From: an uncultured bacterium
Lineage (GTDB): Bacteria; Elusimicrobiota; Elusimicrobia; Elusimicrobiales; Elusimicrobiaceae
Direction of reading: 5' to 3'
Assembly (NCBI GenBank): GCA_949291515.1
Contig: CASEVY010000012.1
Location: 62,001 to 126,000 of the forward strand
DNA length: 64,000 nt
In this document: positions 40,783-48,734 of the stretch, piece by piece
Layout of the letters: every line of letters begins with the position of its first letter
Position numbering within the stretch: position 1 is the stretch's first letter
Position numbers and translations under genes: made by a program
Notes under the pieces: model-generated
What the model was told of the DNA's origin: nothing
Seen by the model: only the letters and a program-made list of their open reading frames with translations
The model's database searches: none

Positions 40783-40858
40783 GGGCGTGTAGCTCAGTTG
40801 GGAGAGCGCCTCGTTCGCAACGAGGAGGTCGTGGGTTCGACTCCCATCACGTCCACCA
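40783..40858 (+). tRNA. tRNA-Ala (anticodon CGC)
   Basis: A 76-base cloverleaf. The acceptor stem GGGCGTG/CACGTCC includes the G3-U70 wobble pair that identifies alanine tRNA. The D arm is GCTC...GAGC, the anticodon arm CCTCG-TTCGCAA-CGAGG with anticodon CGC, and the T arm carries GGTTCGACT. The 3' CCA is encoded. A terminator hairpin follows. Confidence 0.96.
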
Positions 40859-43660: not shown

Positions 43661-45436
43661 ATGAAAAGAACAAATTACTGCGGCGAGATAACCGCCGCGC
43701 TTGAAGGGACAAAGCAAACGCTCTGCGGCTGGGTGCACGGATACCGCAACCACGGCGGCGTTTTGTTTATAGATTTAAGGGACAGGACGGGTTTTGTGCA
43801 GTTGGTGGTAGGGCCCGAAAATAAAGAGGCTTTTGAAGAGGCTTCTTCTCTAAGGAATGAATACGTCGTCCGCGCGCAGGGCGTGGTGGCTCGGCGCAAA
43901 GAGGGCTATGTAAACAAAAATATTCCGACTGGTGAAGTCGAAATAATAGTGGACAAAATAGAAACTTTAAACACCTGCGTACCTTTGCCTTTCGACATAG
44001 ACACCGATAAGAATATATCGGAAGACATTCGCCTTAAATACCGCTACTTGGATTTGAGGAACGCCAGAATGGTTCGCAATTTGACTACCCGCCACCGCTT
44101 GGCTCAAGTGATAAGAAGATACTTTGACGAGCACGGCTTTTTGGAAGTGGAAACGCCGATTCTTACCCGCTCCACGCCGGAAGGCGCGCGCGATTATTTG
44201 GTGCCTTCCAGGGTTCATAACGGCAAATTTTACGCTTTGCCGCAGAGCCCGCAGATGTTCAAGCAGACTTTGATGGCCAGCGGCATAGACAGATACTTCC
44301 AGCTCGCTAGAGCCTTCCGCGACGAGGATCTTCGCGCGGACAGGCAGCCCGAACATACCCAAGTGGATATAGAGATGTCTTTCGTGGAACTTGACGATAT
44401 TTTTGAAATAGCGGAAGGTATGATGCAAACGGCGTTCAAAGCGGTTGGCGAAGAAATAAAAGCCCCGTTTATCCGCCTGCCTTACAAAGAGGCGCTTTTG
44501 CGTTTCGGCAGCGATAAACCCGATATGCGCTTTGATATGGAAATATCGGATATAACCGAAATATTCAAAGCGACCTCATTTAAAGTTTTTGAAGGGGTGA
44601 TAAAGGACGGCGGCGCTATAAGGGCTTTAAAGGCGGACGCCTGTGCCGATAAACTAAGCCGCGGCGTCATAGACAAACTTACCGAGTTGGTAAAAAAGAA
44701 CGGCGGGAAAGGCCTTGTATGGCTGAAATTTAAGGAAGGTAAATTTGAAGGGCCTTCTGCCAAGTTCTTTAAAGAGGACGAACTTAAGGCTTTAGCCGAA
44801 CATTTTAAGCCCGAGCAAGGCGATACGGTATTTATCGGCAGCGACGCAAAAGCCGATACCTGCGCTTTGTTTATGGGCGCTTTAAGAAAGGAGCTTATCA
44901 AGATTTTGGAGCTCAAACCCAAAGTGAAGTGGGCTCCTTTATGGGTGGTAAACTTCCCGCTGTTGGAATATATTCCGGAAGAGGACCGCTATGACGCAGC
45001 TCATAACCCGTTTACCGCGCCCGTGACGGAAGATATACCGCTTTTGGACACCGATCCTTTGAAAGTAAGATCGTATCAGTTTGATATGGTGCTTAACGGA
45101 ATGGAATTGGCCTCGGGTTCGATAAGGAACCACAGACGCGATATTCAGGAGAAGATATTGGCTTTGATGAAGCACTCCAAAGAGGAAGCCGCCAGAAGAT
45201 TTGGTATGCTGTTGAACGCTTTGGAGCGCGGAACGCCTCCGCATGGCGGAATGGGGCTTGGATTTGACAGGCTTACGGCTTTAATCTGCGGGGAAGATTC
45301 CATTAAGGAAGTTATAGCTTTCCCCAAGACGACCGCGGCGGCCTGCCCGCTTACGGAATCGCCCAATATCGTGGATCAGAAACAGTTAGACGAGCTCGGC
45401 ATAGCGATAACTCATATGGAGGAAGAAAACAAATAA
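43661..45436 (+). CDS. aspS: Aspartyl-tRNA synthetase, bacterial type
   Basis: A 591-residue class II synthetase with the bacterial GAD insertion domain (about residues 280-420). The OB fold has LCGWVHGYRNHGGVLFIDLR. Motif 2 and the Asp site are in FQLARAFRDEDLRADRQPEH and TQVDIEMSF. Motif 3 is GGMGLGFDRLTALICG. Length matches full bacterial AspRS. With hisS it forms a two-gene unit; the candidate structured RNA follows it. Confidence 0.97.
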   Translation: MKRTNYCGEITAALEGTKQTLCGWVHGYRNHGGVLFIDLRDRTGFVQLVVGPENKEAFEEASSLRNEYVVRAQGVVARRKEGYVNKNIPTGEVEIIVDKIETLNTCVPLPFDIDTDKNISEDIRLKYRYLDLRNARMVRNLTTRHRLAQVIRRYFDEHGFLEVETPILTRSTPEGARDYLVPSRVHNGKFYALPQSPQMFKQTLMASGIDRYFQLARAFRDEDLRADRQPEHTQVDIEMSFVELDDIFEIAEGMMQTAFKAVGEEIKAPFIRLPYKEALLRFGSDKPDMRFDMEISDITEIFKATSFKVFEGVIKDGGAIRALKADACADKLSRGVIDKLTELVKKNGGKGLVWLKFKEGKFEGPSAKFFKEDELKALAEHFKPEQGDTVFIGSDAKADTCALFMGALRKELIKILELKPKVKWAPLWVVNFPLLEYIPEEDRYDAAHNPFTAPVTEDIPLLDTDPLKVRSYQFDMVLNGMELASGSIRNHRRDIQEKILALMKHSKEEAARRFGMLLNALERGTPPHGGMGLGFDRLTALICGEDSIKEVIAFPKTTAAACPLTESPNIVDQKQLDELGIAITHMEEENK

Positions 45437-45489
45437 GTTTTGTTAAATAAGAAAAAAACTATTAAAAAGCAGTAAATTTATAATTTAAG

Positions 45490-45664
45490 ACTGATTTTTT
45501 GGCGCCGGTTAATGCCCGGCCATATCAAAGGTAAAACTTTGATAAGCTTCAACCCCAAAAAATTGTCGCTCAGTTATAGAAGCGTTCCATCTTTAGGAGG
45601 GAATCGTTTCGGCGGCATATTTTTCCGTGTGGGTTGAAGCTCATGGAAATTATGCCGCTTTTTT
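45490..45664 (+). ncRNA. Candidate structured RNA of unknown class, ending in a terminator
   Basis: No protein frame fits this stretch, but it folds well. Hairpins in order: GCCGG/CCGGC (about 45504-45520), TATCAAAG/CTTTGATA (about 45523-45544), GAAGCG.TTCC/GGAA.CGTTTC (about 45579-45610), and a final GCGGCATA (45612-45619) / TATGCCGC (45651-45658), extended by an inner CCGTG/CATGG helix, with six Ts after it. The 12-base loop of the last hairpin contains GGGTTGAAGCT (45631-45641), exactly complementary to AGCTTCAACCC (45545-45555). This suggests a pseudoknot or a competing fold. A -10-like TATAAT is at 45479-45484; no good -35 is seen. I checked 6S, SRP, tmRNA, RNase P, T-box and common riboswitch signatures and found none. 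Confidence 0.5.
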
Positions 45665-45934
45665 ACGGCTTTATGTTATGCTGATATTAAAAAGTATTTT
45701 AGCGCTCTGGTTTGTTTTATTTTTGTTCTGCGTATTGGTTTTCTTTTCTTCCGAGAATTAAAGCCGCCATCGTTTTGAAAGAAGCTCTTTTTGTATAATT
45801 TATATAAAGAGCAGCTGCGGTTATTCTTTTGCTGCCGCGTGTATTGCAAACATCTCTATTGCCCGAAACATAAATTATTGTTATATTAAATAATAGGGGA
45901 AAATATAATCAAGCAAATGAAAAGCGGAATTTTT

Positions 45935-47041
45935 ATGTATAAATTTCTCGTATCGATTCTATTTGTTTTATTGTTTATGCCGTTGAACGCGCAGCGTATG
46001 ATAAAATATATTACCTTTTATCCCGTGCCGTACGGCAGTCATCAAAAACTTAATGTGACTAATACCGCCATAATAAGCGGACGTGACGGAGGGGAAAGCG
46101 TTATAGCGGGCAGATTGTCGACGCCATCTTCTCCTACGTTTGAAGGGACTGTTCTGTTGGATTTGGAAAGCGGAACGCAGCTATCTACAAACGGCACTAT
46201 CCGCAGCGGCGATATGGGTACGGTTACCTCTTACGGTATAGCGAATATAACCGGGCCTAACAATACAATATCCAACGTGGATAATATTATATCCAATGCT
46301 TATGTGGCAGATGTTTCCAATATCAACAGTTCGGCTTTGCTGGGAGGGATATCCTTGTCTAATTTGCCAAATTGCGGGGATAATATCCCGGCGTGGAAGG
46401 CCCTGCGTCTTAAAGGCAGTGAGGAGTGTAAATTTTATTTAACGTGCAGCGGCAGCGGCGATACCGGCTGCGAGAAAGCGCCGGATTTGCCCGAATGCGA
46501 TTTCGGCCCTTGGATTATGGCAACTACCGATATAATAGATACTTGCGGCGATTCCAGAAGGCAAGGCTGCGTACAGACTTCGCCATGCGGAGCGTCAGAC
46601 AGGCCTTGCGTCAAACTCAGAGAGGGTGTTTATTCCCAAATACCCACGACTTTTAACTGCGGTATGGGGCAAAGTTTAAGCCAGTATTGCTACAGCGGCA
46701 GTAAAAACTGTACAGACGCTAATGTAAGTTTTGTTTGCCGCCAGCACGACGGGCCTAAGAATATGACGGTAAACGGATATTATACCGCGGCGGAATATTG
46801 TTCTTTCTCAACGGATTATGAGGCTACATTCTGGTGCCGCGAAAATCCGTCAAAGAGGGGCTGCCTGCTTTACGGAAACGCCGCTTCTTATACGGCGTCT
46901 TTGGCCTGTGCTCAATCTTATAATATTACAAGCCCGTCCAATGCCTATTGTATTAACGTTACCACTAATATAGGCGGATATATCTGCCAAGACGGAGAAG
47001 ACGACGCTACGGTATACTACAGGGTATGCGGCGGAGTATAG
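45935..47041 (+). CDS. Secreted Cys-rich protein of unknown function
   Basis: The ATG at 45935 (GCGGA just upstream) gives 368 residues; an in-frame ATG at 45917 is an alternative. The signal peptide is short and hydrophobic, ending near PLNAQ. Residues about 21-150 are poor in Cys and rich in Asn, Ser, Thr and Gly, starting with MIKYITFYPVPYGSHQKLNV. This resembles a fibre or adhesin-like stalk. Residues about 160-368 are rich in cysteine (for example DIIDTCGDSRRQGCVQTSPC). It is not obviously homologous to the three proteins at 2.2-5.5 kb and lacks their SEWG motif and leader. Extracellular location is inferred. I do not recognise the family. Confidence 0.7.
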   Translation: MYKFLVSILFVLLFMPLNAQRMIKYITFYPVPYGSHQKLNVTNTAIISGRDGGESVIAGRLSTPSSPTFEGTVLLDLESGTQLSTNGTIRSGDMGTVTSYGIANITGPNNTISNVDNIISNAYVADVSNINSSALLGGISLSNLPNCGDNIPAWKALRLKGSEECKFYLTCSGSGDTGCEKAPDLPECDFGPWIMATTDIIDTCGDSRRQGCVQTSPCGASDRPCVKLREGVYSQIPTTFNCGMGQSLSQYCYSGSKNCTDANVSFVCRQHDGPKNMTVNGYYTAAEYCSFSTDYEATFWCRENPSKRGCLLYGNAASYTASLACAQSYNITSPSNAYCINVTTNIGGYICQDGEDDATVYYRVCGGV

Positions 47042-47261: not shown

Positions 47262-48629
47262 TTAGAAATAAATATCTCTTTCTCCCTGCGCAACCTTTTC
47301 AAGATTGGCTTTTGTCTGCGCCGCTCTTGACGGGGGGAGATCCTTCATCATTTTATCTATAAGAGCAAGTCCTTTCGTTTTCAGTTCCGGAGAGGCGAAA
47401 TCGTATAGATACTCGGCGAAGGTAAACATCGCGTTTGGCAGACAATGCGCTTTTATCAAACCGGGTTTGGCCAGATCCATAAAGTCTTTGCCGACGCGCC
47501 CAAGGCGGTAACAGCCCGTACAGAAGGAGGGGATATACCCGTGGTCGACGATATCGGATATTACGGCTTCCAAAGGCCTGTGGTCGCCGCGGGTAAATTG
47601 TTCGTCGGCGTTATCGTCTTCATAGCCGCCGGGATTGGTTTTGCTGCCGCCAGATATTTGGGATATGCCCAGTTCAAAAGCGTCGCGGCGCATTTGAGGA
47701 TTTTCGCGCGTACTGAGTATTATGCCGGTATAAGGTACGGCGATTCTCAAAACGGCGATAATCTTTTTAAAGTCTTCGTCGCTGACGGCGTAGGGCGGTT
47801 TTTCGCTTAAAGGCGAGCCGCAGGCCGGCTCTATTCTTGGAACCGAAATGGTGTGCGGTCCTATGCCGAATTTATCTTCCAAATCTTTGATGTGCTGAAG
47901 CATTGCCAGTACTTCAAATTTATAATCGTAAAGGCCAAGCAGCGCGCCGATTCCGACGTCGTTTAAGCCCGCTTCCAGCGCTCTGTGCATACCCATAAGG
48001 CGGAACTCATAATCGGCTTTTTTGCCCGCCACGTGCATTTTGTGGTAGGTATCTTTGTGATAGGTTTCCTGAAAAAGCTGGAATGTGCCGATATTGTGTT
48101 TTTTAAGTTCTTTAAATTCTTCCAAGGTCAAAGGCGCGATATTTACGTTTACGCGTCGTATATTATTCTTCCCTTCCCTTACGGAATAGATTGAATCTAT
48201 GGAATCAAAAACGTATTTAAGGCCCGCGCCCGTATAGGATTCGCCCGCGACCATAAGTATCCTCTTATGGCCTTGCTTAAGGAGAGCGGCGGTTTCGTTT
48301 TTCACTTCGTCTTGGTTTAAAGCCTTCCTGTGCAGTTCTTTGTTGGAGGCCCTAAACGCGCAGTAGAGGCATTCGTTAAAACATACGTTGGAAATATATA
48401 AAGGGGCGAAAAGGACCAATCTGTTGCCGTAAATTTCCGTTTTGATATACTTTGCGGTTTTATATAATTCTTCCAGCAAATCTTTGTCGGTAAGGTTAAG
48501 CAGGGCGGCGGTTTGCTCGAAGGAAATGCCTTTAAGTTCGCGCGCCTGTGTAAGAATGTCTAAAATCTGTTGCTTGTCAGCTTTTTGGGTTTTAGATAAA
48601 TTGTCAAAAATTTCGTTTTCTTTTATCAT
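47262..48629 (-). CDS. hydG: [FeFe]-hydrogenase maturase HydG (tyrosine lyase)
   Basis: Radical SAM enzyme that cleaves tyrosine to supply CO and cyanide for the H-cluster. It is 455 residues from the ATG at 48629; a TTG five codons earlier is possible. The SAM cluster is the CX3CX2C in VCFNECLYCAFRASNKE. The C-terminal auxiliary cluster CX2CX22C is intact, beginning SFCTGCYRLGRVG and ending IKAHC. This separates HydG from ThiH. HydE is encoded about 3 kb away on the other strand. HydF is not in the window. The gene supports assembly of the sensory hydrogenase at 20.9 kb and any catalytic one elsewhere. Confidence 0.95.
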   Translation of the reverse strand: MIKENEIFDNLSKTQKADKQQILDILTQARELKGISFEQTAALLNLTDKDLLEELYKTAKYIKTEIYGNRLVLFAPLYISNVCFNECLYCAFRASNKELHRKALNQDEVKNETAALLKQGHKRILMVAGESYTGAGLKYVFDSIDSIYSVREGKNNIRRVNVNIAPLTLEEFKELKKHNIGTFQLFQETYHKDTYHKMHVAGKKADYEFRLMGMHRALEAGLNDVGIGALLGLYDYKFEVLAMLQHIKDLEDKFGIGPHTISVPRIEPACGSPLSEKPPYAVSDEDFKKIIAVLRIAVPYTGIILSTRENPQMRRDAFELGISQISGGSKTNPGGYEDDNADEQFTRGDHRPLEAVISDIVDHGYIPSFCTGCYRLGRVGKDFMDLAKPGLIKAHCLPNAMFTFAEYLYDFASPELKTKGLALIDKMMKDLPPSRAAQTKANLEKVAQGERDIYF

Positions 48630-48734
48630 ACTTATATTGTACAACTTTAGAAGCGAAGCGGATAAAACGTCGCTTTGCGATTTTTTGCCGCCGTTCTGCA
48701 GGCAAAATATGTTTTATCCGCCTTGCCTATAAAT

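Follow-up and report, generated by a model that had tools for sequence, protein, structure and literature searches.

Why should the loop of a transcription terminator carry an exact complement of a strand that lies upstream in the same element? The question is raised by an intergenic segment of a 64,000-nucleotide stretch of DNA (hereafter the window) from an uncultured bacterium of the Elusimicrobiaceae with a 1.5 Mb genome. The element spans approximately 45489-45664, inside the gap between aspS, which ends at 45436, and a gene for a secreted protein, which starts at 45917. An original prediction, made from the sequence alone, had described at this site a structured RNA of four hairpins ending in a terminator, with an 11-base perfect complement between the terminator loop and an upstream single strand. 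Its account of the site, the hairpins and the complementarity held (Table 1): AGCTTCAACCC (45545-45555) is the exact reverse complement of GGGTTGAAGCT (45631-45641), which lies inside the terminator loop. Here we present evidence that the element belongs to a new RNA family, likely (probability roughly 0.74) a bistable cis-acting transcription attenuator located in the 5' leaders of defence and other accessory genes. Termination, read-through and the trigger are inferred, and there are no expression data. Beyond what had been predicted, the family proved to be multi-copy and linked to restriction-modification (R-M) genes.

Table 1. Features of the element and of the DNA around it, in window coordinates
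Feature	Position	Strand	Basis
TATAAT, -10-like box	45479..45484	+	Sequence; identical in G011
Strand 0, 5' side of P1 (GACTGATTTTTTGG)	45489..45502	+	Growing-transcript folding; P1 covariation in relatives
P1 helix pairing	45489-45502 with 45555-45567	+	Growing-transcript folding
P2 hairpin, loop UUAAUGC	45504..45520	+	Predicted fold; loop conserved across the family
P3 hairpin	45523..45544	+	Predicted fold and relatives
J, junction strand of hypervariable sequence, complementary to the terminator loop	45545..45555	+	Exact match and covariation
Strand 1, 3' side of P1 (CCAAAAAATTGTC) plus GCTCA; doubles as antiterminator 5' side	45555..45572	+	
P4 (fourth) hairpin, variable among relatives	45579..45610	+	Growing-transcript folding; flanks of relatives
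Intrinsic terminator hairpin	45611-45659 (with U tract to 45664)	+	
Strand 2, terminator 5' arm; alternative partner of strand 1	45611..45629	+	
Terminator loop, 12 nt, TGGGTTGAAGCT, complement of J	45630..45641	+	
Strand 3, terminator 3' arm	45642..45659	+	Predicted fold; terminator swap z -11
U tract of the intrinsic terminator, six T	45659..45664	+	Sequence
Small ORF, 27 aa, one hydrophobic segment (MLILKSILALWFVLFLFCVLVFFSSEN)	45678..45761	+	Length kept in G011
Gene for a secreted protein of 374 aa, the next conventional one downstream	45917..47041	+	

A transcript start at about 45489-45492 is predicted from the sequence, with no clear -35 box and no experimental mapping; in the related genome G011, conservation with the window starts about 10 nt 5' of the TATAAT box. 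An overlapping 38-aa frame in the leader was rejected as non-coding, its start codon being lost and its frame broken in G011. The region is more stable than 200 of 200 shuffled sequences (z -4.9; z -5.8 for the G011 copy), all energies here and below being nearest-neighbour predictions. The 11-nt match forms the end of a longer complementarity, approximately 45545-45571 with 45611-45641, and this long pairing constitutes the minimum-energy fold of the element. When folding was followed along the growing transcript, the P1 core formed first, after which antiterminator and terminator competed. The match had been considered unlikely by chance, and this held for the loop against the 122 nt upstream, where an 11-nt match arose in 0.015% of shuffles. 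Across the window as a whole, however, inverted repeats of 11 nt separated by 40-150 nt are no rarity (4 observed versus 0-7 in shuffles). The J:loop match is placed above chance by covariation in relatives.

To collect relatives we used covariance models seeded from the window copy and that of G011, the sole match to the element by blastn in 100 related genomes. The R2 model matched G293 (E 1.2e-24), G299 (E 9.3e-17) and G017 (E 1.5e-9), and the R1 core model gave matches in another Elusimicrobiota family, which we take, by inference, to be probably the Endomicrobiaceae; R1 and R3 matches ranged down to E 1e-18. A core pattern yielded 12 matches, with two or three in several genomes, and the improved R3 model gave 26 matches below E 1e-4 in 15 of 336 genomes of the phylum, with a maximum of six candidate copies per genome. 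Together with the G017 copy from R2 and a G008 copy that scores E 1e-3 with R3 and has its J:loop pairing and terminator intact, the family amounts to 28 copies, counting that of the window, spread over 17 Elusimicrobiota genomes; flanks were inspected at 30 places. These E-values are rough and most of the genomes are incomplete draft assemblies. Some copies look degenerate (G274, G284, G299d and G305f), and weak model matches in G106, G114, G126 and the Bacillota genome G363 were rejected for want of a recognisable J:loop pairing and terminator. Searches of 388 Bacillota and 375 Bacteroidota genomes (763 in all; phylum names inferred, no positive control) found nothing convincing, only one weak match without the remaining element, and phages and plasmids gave no blastn match. 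The RNA family has so far been found only in Elusimicrobiota.

Comparison of these copies demonstrated that the loop and J vary from copy to copy yet stay complementary. The J/loop pair reads AGCUUCAACCC/GGGUUGAAGCU in the window, AUGUCUUACCCC/GGGAGUAAGACAU in G293, GGUCUCACCCC/GGGAGUGAGACC in G305b and AGCUGAGAA/UUCUCAGCU in G017, and each of positions 1-8 of the pairing shows all four Watson-Crick pair types. When J was set against the whole 150 nt downstream in 25 copies, the duplex energies with each copy's own region summed to -348.6, versus -195.0 (sd 11.4) for swapped regions; the own region was the best or second best partner in 22 of the 25, and in nearly all copies the best duplex was with the loop just 5' of the terminator 3' arm. 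We rely on this figure rather than on the J:loop z value from the swap tests described below, which is inflated because the loop segments there had been picked by their match to J. Compensatory changes of this kind had been proposed as a check in the original prediction; they are massive in the loop pairing, and no refutation resulted.

The remaining helices covary as well. In P1, P2 and P3, 95.2% of cells are paired, versus 56-63% in slid controls, and both sides have changed in 17 of 22 pairs. Swap tests on 21 non-redundant copies gave z -4.7 for P1, -4.6 for the antiterminator and -11.0 for the terminator, and the part of the antiterminator beyond the A-run, where strand 1 is unpartnered in the terminator state, gave z -3.8 by itself. 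Two control pairings that neither fold needs gave z 0.7 (strands 1:3) and 0.0 (strands 0:2); therefore composition is unlikely to be the cause, and both alternative states are supported. Near-duplicates were dropped, with no other correction for relatedness among the copies. Compensatory change thus supports two mutually exclusive folds, P1 with the terminator versus the longer antiterminator.

In state A of the proposed switch, P1, which closes off a junction containing hairpins P2 and P3, can form at the same time as the terminator; in state B, J and the P1 3' strand can instead pair with the terminator 5' arm and loop to give a long antiterminator. The complementarity had been taken to imply either a pseudoknot or a two-state switch, a reading that is supported; because both alternative folds covary, the switch is the better of the two. 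State A combined with a J:loop kissing helix is not excluded as a simultaneous pseudoknot and would be very stable. The corresponding rival explanation is an independent small RNA, about 175 nt long, with the P1-P2-P3 core, the terminator and the J:loop kissing helix all coexisting; the downstream gene would then be incidental. In its favour, J:loop shows the strongest covariation of all and is topologically compatible with P1 and the terminator; the terminator is strong, with a long U tract, and the distance to the next gene is variable. Against it, GUCGCC, the part of strand 1 beyond P1, would be left unpartnered and yet covaries with the terminator 5' arm (the z of -3.8 above), a 9-11 bp duplex within a 12-nt hairpin loop would be sterically strained, and R-M genes lie more often behind the leaders than before them. 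We consider this explanation unlikely.

In the preferred reading, that of an attenuator, the P1-P2-P3 core would form first in the nascent transcript, and the emerging terminator 5' arm and loop would then either pair with strand 1 and J or await the 3' arm. It is inferred that in state A RNA polymerase halts at the U tract and that in state B it reads into the downstream gene, and the choice may be set by whatever stabilises or destabilises the core, be it a ligand, a protein, or the kinetics of transcription or translation. In 21 of 24 copies the predicted energies of states A and B differ by no more than about 7 kcal/mol; a strong preference for one state is seen in G298 (-9.9), G305b (+10.7) and G011 (+12.4 kcal/mol), and the P1 stem is short in some copies. 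Since both outcomes are of similar stability in most copies, a modest change at P1 could be enough to favour one over the other. The conserved P2 loop, with the family consensus UUAAUGM, and the GNRA-like P3 loops seen in many relatives, not in the window copy, suggest a folded binding site, an inference without binding data. Such a cassette would keep R-M or other accessory genes low until called for, and the window copy would control the 27-aa ORF, the secreted-protein gene, or both.

Several features that define attenuators are present: terminator and antiterminator are mutually exclusive and both evolutionarily maintained; there is a conserved aptamer-like core (P1-P2-P3, in which the P1 sequence and the P2 loop are conserved); and co-directional genes lie downstream of most copies, with regulation itself not shown and the window target tentative. 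Speaking against an attenuator, several copies lie before genes that have no connection with defence, and the distance from terminator to gene varies. A possible variant of the main reading is a ligand-free timing device, a kinetic attenuator that would give newly acquired genes a fixed low level of read-through. The near-isoenergetic states and varied cargo fit this variant, as does the need of restriction enzymes for low or delayed expression; the conserved P2 loop, the P1 sequence and the recurrent GNRA-like P3 loops argue against it, suggesting that the core is recognised by something.

The failure to recognise a known RNA family in the original prediction was also borne out. Scans of the window copy and its relatives against Rfam (4227 families) gave nothing near any gathering score on the element, and none at a relaxed threshold; weak matches to rli53, ST7-OT4_2 and RefA9 were far below gathering, at chance level, and were rejected. 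At the gathering threshold, a tRNA gene (40783-40855) was the sole Rfam match anywhere in the window. Literature searches found nothing on riboswitches in Endomicrobium or on structured RNA motifs in Elusimicrobia, and nothing matching for riboswitches or attenuation combined with restriction-modification, judged mostly by titles and abstracts. The element therefore works like a transcription attenuator without membership in any curated class that could be tested. With transcription-terminating riboswitches and attenuators it shares a 5' leader position, a multi-stem core, and P1 in competition with an antiterminator and an intrinsic terminator; unlike them, it has no known ligand, its core has no Rfam match, and its J is hypervariable, sits inside the core and pairs with the apical loop of the terminator. 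It resembles 6S RNA in its length of about 180 nt but lacks the 6S-type central bubble, and RF00013 (6S RNA) had no match in 18 genomes of the genus, element included, in which the positive controls matched.

Two further rivals derive from known systems, and both are very unlikely. The first is a diverged leader class such as the T-box, with which the element shares a terminator/antiterminator switch and a UGG motif near the switching hairpin: UGG, recalling the T-box UGGN, opens the terminator loop in most copies, and the window copy adjoins aspS. However, no Stem I or specifier is recognised and Rfam gives no T-box or riboswitch match; the cargo consists of neither aminoacyl-tRNA nor amino-acid genes, aspS lies upstream of the element and not downstream, and the GG of the loop is paired with a conserved CC in the antiterminator. 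The second is an RNA antitoxin or partner that binds the downstream protein, as in AbiF or type III toxin-antitoxin systems. The nearest system in layout is in fact abiF RNA (RCd22, RF03085), a terminated RNA directly 5' of an anti-phage gene which has been proposed to act partly via premature termination (PMC12373285), and in the window the element is followed by what may be a toxic membrane peptide. However, the element differs in structure from abiF RNA, there is no evidence of protein binding, RF03085 was unmatched in all Rfam scans, and there is no constant downstream toxin family. abiF RNA has one cargo family, whereas those behind the element are many and unrelated (EcoRI methyltransferase, Dcm, EcoRV, type I, type III, type IIG and others), so one conserved RNA core cannot fit one protein.

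Comparison of the window site between species showed that the element comes and goes. G011 carries the same element, beside an aspS fragment 98% identical in protein sequence to that of the window genome, G000. The block at about 45465-45761 aligns between the two with a single one-base gap, flanked by intergenic DNA that is far less similar, and its conservation stops at the stop codon of the 27-aa ORF; identity is about 97% in the RNA part and about 92% in the surrounding aspS region. At the same site a third species, G001, gave only a weak match (E 3e-4), possibly a decayed copy, and a fourth, G017, has a plain terminator there and a good copy elsewhere in its genome. The element thus behaves as a cassette gained and lost at this locus. 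The G001 site (L012:2637-2830) holds a different structured, terminator-ended RNA that shares the terminator stem GGCGGCAUA; it may be a decayed or remodelled copy.

What do these leaders precede? At 8 of the 22 loci that could be assessed, at least one of the first two genes downstream is an R-M gene, while the nearest gene upstream is of this kind in 1 of 20 cases (p 0.015, or 0.026 with two orthologous loci merged); the loci were classed by eye after family searches, so that the p value is indicative. Genes found downstream include a type III Mod, an EcoRI-type methylase with a GmrSD/HNH nuclease, a type I M-S protein (as second gene), a Dcm with an NgoFVII nuclease, another Dcm, and two mutually orthologous Eco57I-like enzymes; EcoRV and its D12 methylase follow a degenerate leader, and UzuA is a later gene downstream of the leader in G017. 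The association is the more striking because a genome survey describes R-M in Endomicrobiaceae as rare and randomly distributed (PMC11257099). Upstream neighbours are sometimes also defence-related (HamB, PDC-S02, PDC-S01), and part of the R-M signal therefore reflects residence in defence islands. Behind other leaders lie genes for a pilin, a glycosyltransferase, a macroglobulin, a helicase and a radical-SAM protein; the cargo is best described as accessory genes in general. The gene that precedes the G025 leader (L160:5414-6988) resembles, from its sequence, the large subunit of a phage terminase, so this leader may, together with the Dcm/NgoFVII operon behind it, be part of a prophage.

In the window, the 27-aa ORF immediately after the terminator may tentatively be regarded as the regulated gene, perhaps encoding a toxic membrane peptide; it has no clear ribosome site and no PADLOC family match. 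The secreted-protein gene has no Pfam or PADLOC match and is adjoined by a HydG-like radical-SAM gene on the minus strand (47262-48644). A role of J or the loop as antisense to the downstream gene was rejected: the 12 8-nt complements found, versus 4.0 expected, came largely from tandem copies and one overlapping cluster.

R-M systems are known to be controlled mainly via protein regulators, and a multi-copy RNA switch before many unrelated defence genes would constitute a new layer of immune regulation. A bolder reading, which we regard as no more than possible, is a dedicated class of immunity RNA switches: a mobile leader cassette whose core would sense infection or the entry of foreign DNA and release transcription of defence genes, the copy-specific J:loop pairing preventing cross-pairing among switches in one genome. 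Whatever the trigger, the copy-to-copy covariation provides an unusually clean natural data set on a bistable RNA keeping two folds.

Further observations concern similar sequences elsewhere. In a scan of genome and viral collections for the 10-nt inverted repeat, the inspected matches beyond G011 (Oscillospiraceae, Salaquimonas, Prevotellaceae, Chitinophagales, Inquilinus and five viral contigs) were unlike the element and were set aside. The 10-nt inverted repeat GCTTCAACCC...GGGTTGAAGC recurs many times, at similar spacing, in genomes of the Micromonospora group (L041-L066; Micromonospora, Verrucosispora), apparently as an unrelated repeat family. The core pattern had 14 matches in viral contigs, all without the rest of the element, and the antiterminator pattern was found in three near-identical viral contigs (L176, L177 and L178) with no core match; these share AAAAAGTGTCGCC...GGCGACC in near-identical surroundings. 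Among true relatives, G299 carries tandem leader copies about 300-400 nt apart (L158:965-1348 and L149:2400-2887), the second of each pair having a weakened terminator-loop match. Finally, a conserved AACTTAATAGACAC lies just 5' of P1 in many relatives (e.g. L165, L150, L154), often preceded by the hairpin-like stretch GCGTTGAAAGACGC; the two could be a promoter or an additional RNA element.
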